Source: a virus. From it: 64,000 bases of DNA. Positions 12,973 through 16,445 of the stretch are shown in pieces (position 1 is the stretch's first letter; every line of letters starts with the position of its first letter). Made by a program: the position numbers and the translations under genes. The stretch spans positions 1 through 64,000 of the IMG/VR virus record IMGVR_UViG_3300011115_000716; one strand, written 5' to 3'. The notes under the pieces were generated by a model, which worked only from the letters and a program-made list of their open reading frames with translations, was not told the DNA's origin and made no database searches.

Positions 12973-12977
12973 ACAAG

Positions 12978-13016
12978 TAGCCCCATCAGTTTAGGCTGGT
13001 GGGGCTATTTCTTTAT
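12978..13016 (+). terminator. Rho-independent terminator
   Basis: 12-bp stem TAGCCCCATCAG/CTGGTGGGGCTA with loop TTTAGG, then TTTCTTTAT. Six bases after the NlpC/P60 stop. Confidence 0.8.
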
Positions 13017-13758: not shown

Positions 13759-14022
13759 ATGAAACTTACTGGAAATGTCCTTCTTAGAATTTTGGCGACG
13801 TTTGTCGCGTCCGCACTTGGCGTTATCGGTGCTGGTTCCCTTGGTGGTGTGGCTCCCGCTACTGCTGCCCTTGTTGGCGGTATTTTGGCTGTCGCTAAGG
13901 TAATTGAACGTTTGTCTCTTGCTTTCCTAGAGGATGGCAAACTATCTAACGCTGAAATCAATGCTGCCTTCCAGCAGTCTCTTCAGCTAAAGAATGTAAA
14001 AGAAGAAGAGCCAAAGAAGTAA
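13759..14022 (+). CDS. Holin-like small membrane protein
   Basis: 87 residues. Hydrophobic residues 5-48 form one long or two short membrane helices (Ala/Gly/Leu/Val rich), followed by a helical acidic/basic tail with a DGKLSNAEINAAF segment. Size and position, beside a PA14 surface protein and near M23 endolysin genes, fit a holin, which would form membrane lesions to time lysis. ATG has AGAGGT upstream. Shares one base with the next gene. Confidence 0.6.
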   Translation: MKLTGNVLLRILATFVASALGVIGAGSLGGVAPATAALVGGILAVAKVIERLSLAFLEDGKLSNAEINAAFQQSLQLKNVKEEEPKK

Positions 14023-15767
14023 TGCGGCTGTTGCGTATACTCGCAACGCTATCCGTAACACTACTTTTAGCTCTTACCCCTTTACTATTCCCAGCATCAG
14101 CGTATGCCCAAACACTTAATGAAGCAGAGTCTGCTCTTTCATCTGGAAAGCAAGAGTTAATTGATGCTACCCAAAATAGGAAACTAGCGGACCAAACAGT
14201 ATCCTCAACATTAACAAACTTGCAGTCTTCTAATACAGATGTTGAAACTGCACAAAATAATTACGATAAAAACCTAATCTCAGACCCAACTTGGGTTAAC
14301 CCAACTCAAGAGGTAGAGCACACTCGCTTAGTGCCTAAAACTGAATTAGTTTCTAAAACTACCCCTGTATCTCACATTGAAACAATTACACATACAAATA
14401 TGGTAGAAGTTCTAACCAGTATCCCCCACACAACCATTGTTGAACACACTACTACAACAGTAGTTCCTGGTGGGTTAGTAGCTAAGTCCTATAACCGTCA
14501 AGGTTACAATAATGCCCCTCCACTTCCCCTGTCCGAGGAAACTCCTCTAAACACTGAGAATGTTTCAAACATTGACTTTCAGTGGGGTGGAGGACAGGTT
14601 CTTAACTCAGGCAAATCCGAAGATGTACTTGTAGCTTTTGAAGGTAACCTTATGGTGCCAGTTGATGGTTGGTACAAGTTCTATGCTCCTGGTGACGATG
14701 GAATAAAGCTAGATATTGCTGGAATGAAACTTATTGATGACTGGCGAGATAAGGGTGGAGGCGGAACAGTCTCTGAACAGGTTTGGATTAGAGCTGGTAT
14801 TTTTTATCCAACCACTCTTTATTACTATGAAAATGGTGGAGGTGCTTGGGTTCAGCTTTACTATTCAACTCCAGCCTCAGGATTCCAAATAGTTCCAGCT
14901 AGCTGGTTTGGGGAAAAAACAGTAACAGAGACTACTTATGAGGAAGTTGTTACTTGGGAAACTGTAATCACATACGAAGAAGTTGTGACTTACGAAGACA
15001 TCACAGTTTGGGAAGACGTAACTACTTGGGAAGAAGTTACCACCATGGTTGAGGAGGTATACTTTACAGTAGAGTTAGTTCCAAATCAATTTGCCCCTTT
15101 AATAAAAGATGATGCACTTTTAGCAATTGTAAATGAAAAAGTCATTATAAAAAATATTGCACAGCAAAACTACGATGAGGCAGTAGCCACCCAAGCAGTA
15201 GCTGTTTCTAGAGAAGTGGTTGCAATTAAAGCAATTCCTGATTTAGAACAAGCAGTTATTGACGCTACACCGGTTGTTGTTCCACCTGTTGTTGACCCTC
15301 CAGTAGTGCCAGACCCACAGCCAGAACAAGGTTCAAAGGAAATCCCGGTAGTTATTGAAAATCTTATGGATGTTGACCTACAAGCAGTAGACCCTACTGA
15401 ACTTACTGAAGCACAAGCAGAACAACTTGTAGAGGCAGCCCTTGTTGTATTTGAAACAGCAGAAGAAGGCTCACCAGAATATGCTCAAGCGTTGGATGCA
15501 CTTTACCTTGCAGCCGAACAAGACGACATTGTGGTGGATGAAGCACTTGCTAACATTCCTGGTGTTGGTCAAGCCGCTGTTGCTATTGCTAACGTATTGA
15601 ATGCCATTAGTAACGTAGGTGCAGACATTTCCCCTAAAGCTCGTAAGAAGGCTCAAAACCTTGTAGTTACTACCCTAGTTGTTGGGCAGATTGCTCAATC
15701 AGCCGCCCTAGCAGCCGCTTCGGGTGGTTCATCATCTTCTAATAGAATAAACAGGAGAAAAGAATGA
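14022..15767 (+). CDS. Secreted PA14-domain stalk protein
   Basis: 581 residues. Signal peptide 1-29 (cleavage after ASAYA likely). Helical region 30-85. Eight hexad repeats of V-x-x-T type at about 97-149, rich in Lys, His and Arg. PA14 domain at 150-296 (GWYKFYAPGDDGIKLDI is the core). A second run of acidic hexads (TYEEVV, TWETVI, TYEDIT, VWEDVT, TWEEVT) at about 300-350. Helical region 360-415, Pro/Val linker 416-435 and a C-terminal hydrophobic helix near 545-570 with a basic end. PA14 domains bind carbohydrates. The two opposite-charge repeat runs could pair as a stalk holding PA14 at the tip. Ends ATGA-overlapping the next gene. Confidence 0.8.
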   Translation: MRLLRILATLSVTLLLALTPLLFPASAYAQTLNEAESALSSGKQELIDATQNRKLADQTVSSTLTNLQSSNTDVETAQNNYDKNLISDPTWVNPTQEVEHTRLVPKTELVSKTTPVSHIETITHTNMVEVLTSIPHTTIVEHTTTTVVPGGLVAKSYNRQGYNNAPPLPLSEETPLNTENVSNIDFQWGGGQVLNSGKSEDVLVAFEGNLMVPVDGWYKFYAPGDDGIKLDIAGMKLIDDWRDKGGGGTVSEQVWIRAGIFYPTTLYYYENGGGAWVQLYYSTPASGFQIVPASWFGEKTVTETTYEEVVTWETVITYEEVVTYEDITVWEDVTTWEEVTTMVEEVYFTVELVPNQFAPLIKDDALLAIVNEKVIIKNIAQQNYDEAVATQAVAVSREVVAIKAIPDLEQAVIDATPVVVPPVVDPPVVPDPQPEQGSKEIPVVIENLMDVDLQAVDPTELTEAQAEQLVEAALVVFETAEEGSPEYAQALDALYLAAEQDDIVVDEALANIPGVGQAAVAIANVLNAISNVGADISPKARKKAQNLVVTTLVVGQIAQSAALAAASGGSSSSNRINRRKE

Positions 15768-15952
15768 AAAAAGTAAAGAAATTCCTAGTGGCTTTGCTTA
15801 GAGACCTGCTTGACCAGGCTTGGACCCTTTTAGGTCTAGCTCTTGGTTGGGTTCTTCTTGAAGGCTCTGCTCGTGACATTGTAGGTAAGTTGATTGGTGT
15901 TACCCTTCTTATCTGGATTGTTACTTTCCCACTGCGTAACCGTGACGAATAA
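15764..15952 (+). CDS. Small membrane protein, possible second holin
   Basis: 62 residues. Hydrophobic segments at about 17-32 and 42-55 with a basic N-terminus (KKVKK) and charged C-end. It overlaps the PA14 gene by four bases and precedes the M23 endolysin, so an antiholin or spanin-like role is possible. Confidence 0.6.
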   Translation: MKKVKKFLVALLRDLLDQAWTLLGLALGWVLLEGSARDIVGKLIGVTLLIWIVTFPLRNRDE

Positions 15953-15986: not shown

Positions 15987-16445
15987 ATGTCTGAAATTGT
16001 ATATCATGAACCATTTGATAAAAAACTTAGAGGCGATGAACTTGGTAACTTGGCTCCGTACCGTAATGGGCGACCACACCGTGGGCAAGACTGGCACCCT
16101 GCCGAAAAGTCTGCTATTCACGCTATTTGTGACGGTACTGTCGGGCTAGTTGACTGGTCTGATGTTTTAGGTAACTTTATTGTTCACTCTTCAAAAGACG
16201 CTAAACACTGGGTGCTTTATGCTCACTTAGCAAAACCAAGCACTCTTAAAAAGGGTGACAAGGTTGAAGGTGGCAAAACTGTTCTTGGATTAGTTGGTGG
16301 TGGAAAGAACACTCCTTCAGGTTCAGCATCTACTGGTGCACATCTACACATGACTGTTGCAACAATGGGAAAGAACTACCAAGGCGTAGAAGCACACTTG
16401 CTTCCATTTGAGCGTCTAGTAGACCCTCTAACCCTCTTTAAGTAA
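15987..16445 (+). CDS. M23 peptidase endolysin
   Basis: 152 residues, nearly all one LytM/M23 domain. Zinc ligands are visible as H31 and D35 (HRGQDW) and H119-x-H121 (AHLHM), with H80 (YAHL) as the catalytic helper. M23 peptidases cut short peptide bridges in peptidoglycan. Without a signal peptide, it should reach the wall through the holin. ATG follows GAAAGGACAACC. Confidence 0.9.
   Translation: MSEIVYHEPFDKKLRGDELGNLAPYRNGRPHRGQDWHPAEKSAIHAICDGTVGLVDWSDVLGNFIVHSSKDAKHWVLYAHLAKPSTLKKGDKVEGGKTVLGLVGGGKNTPSGSASTGAHLHMTVATMGKNYQGVEAHLLPFERLVDPLTLFK

Follow-up and report, generated by a model that had tools for sequence, protein, structure and literature searches.

Why would a phage place a PA14 domain between two runs of six-residue repeats, in an exported protein encoded among genes that resemble a lysis region? 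The gene that raises this question lies in a window of 64 kb (the whole stretch of DNA analysed here), taken out of a virus record of 90,052 bases. Tail sheath and baseplate genes are encoded by the phage, and its terminase is about 50% identical to that of Streptomyces phage BRock. Two WhiB genes are also present in the record, both outside the 64-kb window. Outside actinobacteria and the phages that infect them, the regulator WhiB is not known (PMC10611076). Because 38 of the 39 records sampled from phages carrying the stalk protein family described below contain it, the host of the source phage is very likely an actinobacterium. The source is most likely a freshwater phage of actinobacteria, and the protein an exported fold-back stalk with a membrane anchor and a sugar-binding tip.

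The first-pass annotation had described an open reading frame at 14022-15767 in which PA14 lies between the two repeat runs, and both its coordinates and its layout proved correct. From the N-terminus, the 581-residue protein is composed of a signal peptide, a helix, about nine hexads, PA14, about nine further hexads, a helix, a linker, a hydrophobic C-terminus and a basic tail:

14022..15767, plus strand: candidate stalk lectin, whole gene (581 aa)
14022..14108, plus strand: predicted signal peptide, residues 1-29, with AYA followed by Q at the cleavage site (from sequence; h-region KD19 2.07)
14115..14270, plus strand: predicted N-side helix, residues 32-83 (52 aa; AlphaFold2, pLDDT 86-96)
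14304..14465, plus strand: N-side hexad run, predicted strand of residues 95-148 (54 aa), period 6, length paired with that of the C run
14472..14912, plus strand: PA14 head, residues 151-297 (Pfam, RsgI3 profile, Foldseek and invariance)
14694-14699, plus strand: D225-D226 in the PA14 head, invariant among relatives
14916..15077, plus strand: C-side hexad run, acidic, predicted strand of residues 299-352 (54 aa; AlphaFold2, period 6)
15111..15266, plus strand: predicted C-side helix, residues 364-415 (52 aa; AlphaFold2, pLDDT 73-95)
15267..15359, plus strand: Pro-rich linker (from sequence; residues 420-446 have a pLDDT below 50)
15360..15764, plus strand: conserved C-terminal region with a signature shared with relatives, ending in the basic tail NRINRRKE
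15660-15716, plus strand: hydrophobic C-terminal helix, residues 547-565 (KD19 1.69)

The repeats on both sides of PA14 have a periodicity far above chance, as the first reading of the sequence had proposed. At lags 6 and 12 the N run has a mean identity of 0.29 and the C run one of 0.32, compared to 0.12 and 0.15 in shuffled sequences, and the level of the runs was reached by 0 of 2000 shuffles. No known repeat family was found for the hexads, Pfam, PHROG and NCBIfam giving no match outside PA14. The runs had also been described as basic on the N side and acidic on the C side. The C run is indeed strongly acidic (E14 D2 K1), but the N run is about neutral, with K2 R1 H5 (eight basic residues, five of them His) versus E6, which makes zipping by opposite charge a weak proposal. 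Across relatives the net charge ranges from -4.5 to +2 in the N run and from -3 to -22.5 in the C run, and therefore charge neutralization is not the rule overall. A pure charge zipper was rejected because the N run is near neutral. The charges of individual hexads are anticorrelated (0 of 5000 shuffles as strong), but we make no claim from this value, because it is inflated by the kinship of the sequences.

Do the two runs nevertheless pair with each other? Scans of viral contigs yielded more than 100 relatives of the stalk protein, among them proteins with the same hexad-PA14-hexad layout and runs of matched length. The N run was measured from a DPxW motif to PA14, and the C run from the end of PA14 to a PLIxDP motif. 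This gave nine length classes (N/C: 26/30, 32/36, 39/42, 44/48, 51/53, 56-57/60, 63/66, 74/78 and 93/96). In 25 dereplicated members the run lengths co-vary in steps of six (r = 0.9995), with the C run always 2-4 residues longer than the N run. The window protein (57/60) and L049 (39/42), for example, differ by -18/-18, L072 (39/42) and L079 (93/96) by +54/+54, and L013 (56/60) and L057 (74/78) by +18/+18. In L069 the runs are 32/36 with an extra lectin-like insert behind the C run, the C value being set by eye. In L020, L022 and L186 the hexads are missing from both sides, and members that bear another head retain matched runs.

A tree of the PA14 domain (28 rows, three of them lacking hexads, with weak support at many forks) implies at least 11 changes of hexad number, an approximate count, with no one-sided changes; every change is two-sided because all tips of this tree obey the length rule. 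Since one tandem duplication cannot extend two runs that are split by a domain, the pattern argues for selection for equal length and hence for pairing, which would be the simple reading of the matched run lengths. Secondary evidence is provided by the coil lengths of the two sides in hexad members, which show a rough correlation (rho 0.82, with crude borders). Both strands appear to be adjustable in length by whole hexads, and it is rare for pairing to be revealed, with no structure solved, by matched insertions and deletions flanking a domain.

AlphaFold2, run with 31 sequences, predicts a helix (residues 32-83), a strand (95-148), PA14, a strand (299-352) and a helix (364-415). The helices expected outside both repeat runs are thus confirmed in the model (52 residues each), and the runs themselves become two strands of equal length (54 residues each). 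The pLDDT of the strands is 80-90 in their outer part (up to 89 in the N strand) and drops to 43-59 halfway along the ribbon, with an overall pTM of 0.33. At these values we infer the pairing of the runs from the need of each predicted strand for a partner, together with the length rule. For a member with another head (L027) the same helix-strand-head-strand plan is predicted with a mean pLDDT of 84. Allowing 3.3 Å for each residue in a strand and 1.5 Å for each in a helix, the ribbon would measure about 18 nm and the helical part 8 nm, which adds up to a stalk of about 26 nm. Between them, the paired length changes and the AlphaFold2 prediction give strong support to a fold-back stalk with PA14 at its tip.

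The nearest design known to us is that of the streptococcal antigen I/II proteins (SpaP, SspB, AspA), which likewise have matched flanking repeats and a swappable head on a stalk. In antigen I/II, the head is held out on a long stalk formed by the pairing of the two repeat regions that flank it, and heads vary while stalk and anchor are kept (PMC3178794). There, however, the α-helix of the A region pairs with the polyproline helix of the P region, whereas the stalk lectin is predicted to pair strand with strand and helix with helix. Antigen I/II also has an LPXTG sortase anchor, while the C-terminus of the stalk lectin has a hydrophobic helix and NRINRRKE and no LPXTG. Unlike antigen I/II, the stalk lectin is phage-encoded and has a two-TM partner. 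By analogy, it would work like the antigen I/II fold-back stalk, yet it is not a member of that family.

What does the stalk carry? Residues 151-285 match PF07691 (PA14) with a Pfam E of 4e-9 (37 bits vs. a cut-off of 24), profile comparison of the head with RsgI3 gives an E of 2e-28, and Foldseek finds a resemblance to the PA14 lectins MpPA14, Flo5 and Epa1. The head is a sugar-binding fold as judged by profile and predicted fold. The pair D225-D226 is invariant in 31 relatives and aligns with the DDG of the adhesin PA14 domain 6m8m. In MpPA14, two consecutive aspartates in cis linkage (DcisD) hold the sugar-binding calcium (PMC8092209). D225-D226 provides the consecutive Asp-Asp of Ca-dependent PA14 lectins at the corresponding ligand site, and the putative glycan binding may thus be Ca-dependent. 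The head fold and the Asp-Asp pair are common to the stalk lectin and MpPA14, Flo5, Epa1 and RsgI3; the difference is that PA14 is mounted here inside a fold-back stalk. Sister proteins have other domains in place of PA14: SUEL-lectin-like ones (best E 6.6e-7, just below the Pfam cut-off), a β-sandwich akin to Fbs1, CBM16 and an alginate CBM, or swapped heads of further kinds. Judging from these sequences, the stalk lectin probably binds envelope glycans.

Two kinds of unusual member were also seen. The head of L122 looks by eye like a right-handed β-helix with repeated NNT/NNS rungs and has no Pfam match. Four other proteins (L091, L097, L098 and L103; 1271-1512 aa) carry PA14 midway in long Gln/Thr/Ala-rich predicted coils and have no hexads.

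The neighbours of the gene bear on both its anchoring and its function:

13759..14022, plus strand: holin-like small membrane protein, its stop codon and the start codon of the stalk gene overlapping in TAATG
15764..15952, plus strand: 62-aa protein with two predicted TM segments (2TM), whose start overlaps the stop of the stalk gene (ATGA)
15987..16445, plus strand: M23 peptidase without signal peptide (Pfam E 6e-14), probable holin-dependent endolysin

The overlaps TAATG and ATGA suggest coupled translation of the holin-like, stalk and 2TM genes. Among the 85 testable loci (at least 900 nt of sequence downstream of the stalk gene), the 2TM gene follows the stalk gene in all 85, within 200 nt in 76 of them, and a relative of the holin-like protein lies at most 1.5 kb away in 66. 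Conversely, 75 of 78 proteins encoded upstream of a 2TM gene carry the C-terminal signature of the stalk family, whatever their head. The holin-like protein itself has a weak PHROG holin match (E 0.005) and a match to phrog_26427 (E 4e-17). Downstream neighbours at other loci (86 distinct) include 13 M23, 9 PG_binding_1, 4 CHAP and 1 amidase, with double counting possible. M23 relatives were found in only 30 of 108 loci, which counts against the lysis-linked reading. On the upstream side, a strong terminator-like hairpin of 16 pairs is present at 12975-13010 of the window, just 3′ of an NlpC/P60 lipoprotein gene that it parts from the next genes.

Export and C-terminal anchoring had been proposed from the signal peptide and the terminal helix. 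At the N-terminus, a hydrophobic stretch is accompanied by an AxA-type site (A27-Y28-A29). At the other end the hydrophobic stretch (KD19 = 1.69) precedes the basic tail, and the value exceeds 1.6 in 91% of 88 relatives. Beyond these sequence signals, the proposal is supported by a natural fusion in phage DSL-LC01, where a stalk-like protein and a 2TM-like segment share one open reading frame (profile comparison probability 92%, E 6.5e-7, a single comparison). The fused gene (L191, OQ999401, 11698-14532, minus strand) encodes an exported protein of 944 aa that bears CBM-like heads, contains Thr-rich linkers and runs at its C-terminus into the 2TM-like protein. The stalk protein may form a complex with the 2TM protein. 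We hold the anatomy, that of an exported and membrane-anchored fold-back stalk lectin, with considerable confidence.

How could such a protein act? There is strong support for an antiparallel two-stranded ribbon in which the two hexad runs, N-side and C-side, are matched one-to-one, with the outer helices at the base of the stalk and PA14 at its far end. The stalk would be long enough for PA14 to reach the outer surface of a thin Gram-positive wall or extend beyond it; there PA14 would bind envelope glycans through its Ca-binding Asp-Asp site, while the C-terminal helix would remain in the membrane alongside the 62-aa two-TM partner. Late in infection, this membrane-tethered glycan grip would help to break or release the envelope, as a LysZ-like third lysis step in actinobacteria; that the protein acts at the end of infection we infer. 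LysZ of Corynebacterium phages is membrane-anchored, with 177 aa, a single TMD and N-in/C-out topology, and is proposed to promote lysis via envelope glycans (as described in PMC13056207). Compared by description, the stalk lectin has the opposite topology, which counts against the LysZ-like reading, and it has 581 aa, an exported N-terminus, a C-terminal anchor and a long stalk. As a whole, a membrane-anchored fold-back stalk lectin with LysZ-like, lysis-linked action is the best explanation at hand, and we judge the chances for and against it to be evenly balanced; the role in lysis taken by itself falls just short of that.

The first-pass annotation had also suggested that the protein might alter the host surface or superinfection, beyond lysis, which is plausible. 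The stalk would then lift PA14 past the wall, where it would shield host glycan receptors or take them up itself, excluding superinfection, or would cause infected cells to adhere or clump, and lysis would need none of this. Stalk lengths that extend past the wall and vary widely, up to long coils, fit such a display better than a fixed wall-disrupting task, and heads are exchanged among unrelated sugar-binding folds, as in streptococcal antigen I/II (PMC3178794). The near-obligate 2TM operon, the frequent holin-like gene and the nearby hydrolases, on the other hand, look more like a core function of late infection than like an accessory gene for exclusion. We consider surface display a serious possibility, though one below even chances. 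A role in lysis is at least as likely, because of the strict operon with 2TM, the often present holin-like gene and the peptidoglycan hydrolases nearby. We favour the lysis-linked role, with surface display close behind, and the present evidence fits both.

Several multimeric fibre shafts contain short repeats. The runs could be unpaired within the chain and lie along one shaft of an oligomer, for example a trimeric β-spiral, with which the monomer prediction and its low mid-ribbon pLDDT are compatible. The assembly of one type of run would, however, need no equal change in the other, whereas the two match within 2-4 residues in 25 of 25 distinct members, so we regard an oligomer as improbable. 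A virion fibre or decoration that uses PA14 on host sugars is very improbable: PA14/CBM-like folds do occur in phage tail proteins (a swapped head matches tailspikes in Foldseek), but the signal peptide, the hydrophobic C-terminal helix and basic tail, the position of the gene before the terminase and outside the head-tail-baseplate genes, and the fusion to a two-TM membrane protein all speak against it. A two-component spanin, which comprises an inner-membrane protein and an outer-membrane lipoprotein, was also considered and rejected, as no lipoprotein partner is directly linked and WhiB points to actinobacterial hosts.

A broader reading takes the membrane-anchored stalk lectin as one of a phage-specific class of envelope effectors in Actinobacteria, in which a head-swappable, length-adjustable stalk lectin and a dedicated two-TM protein, working as a complex, would tether glycans to the membrane and trigger or complete lysis, as a Gram-positive spanin counterpart on a new β-ribbon stalk. 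We offer this as speculation and think it rather unlikely. From their sequences, hundreds of related phages appear to carry the stalk device with other tips, always adjoining the 2TM protein, whose family is represented on at least 599 viral contigs and on a single contig in GTDB. The only host-borne copies are on one GTDB contig, a Flavobacteriaceae MAG that is phage-contig-like. In INPHARED, searches with the stalk protein and with the 2TM protein found no cultured phage that has the cassette, and the holin-like protein matches only DSL-LC01, itself metagenome-assembled. A literature search found no paper on the stalk protein. Three UniProt entries from uncultured Caudovirales (A0A6J7WSJ6, A0A6J5L639 and A0A6J5KND8; “PA14 domain containing protein”) belong to the stalk family at near full length, as judged by both fold and sequence (29-42% identity), and are named for the PA14 domain only. 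As far as our searches show, what is new is the ribbon of paired hexad runs, the exchange of heads and the 2TM partner, which is obligate.

Lysis and receptors of freshwater Actinobacteria are little studied. Should the family bind envelope glycans, a dedicated, head-swapping device against host surface sugars is present in hundreds of phages of these bacteria. The stalk lectin makes it possible to test how phages whose hosts lack an outer membrane complete lysis or change the surface of an occupied cell.

The start of the stalk gene is itself peculiar in part of the family. At 24 loci (including L002, L003, L004, L051, L053, L057 and L062-L066) no ATG, GTG or TTG precedes the signal peptide of the stalk gene, and at most of these an AGGAGA-type ribosome site is found about 6-8 nt upstream of an ATT codon. 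The sequences make a conserved ATT start likely for the stalk gene in those loci, which would hold expression low.
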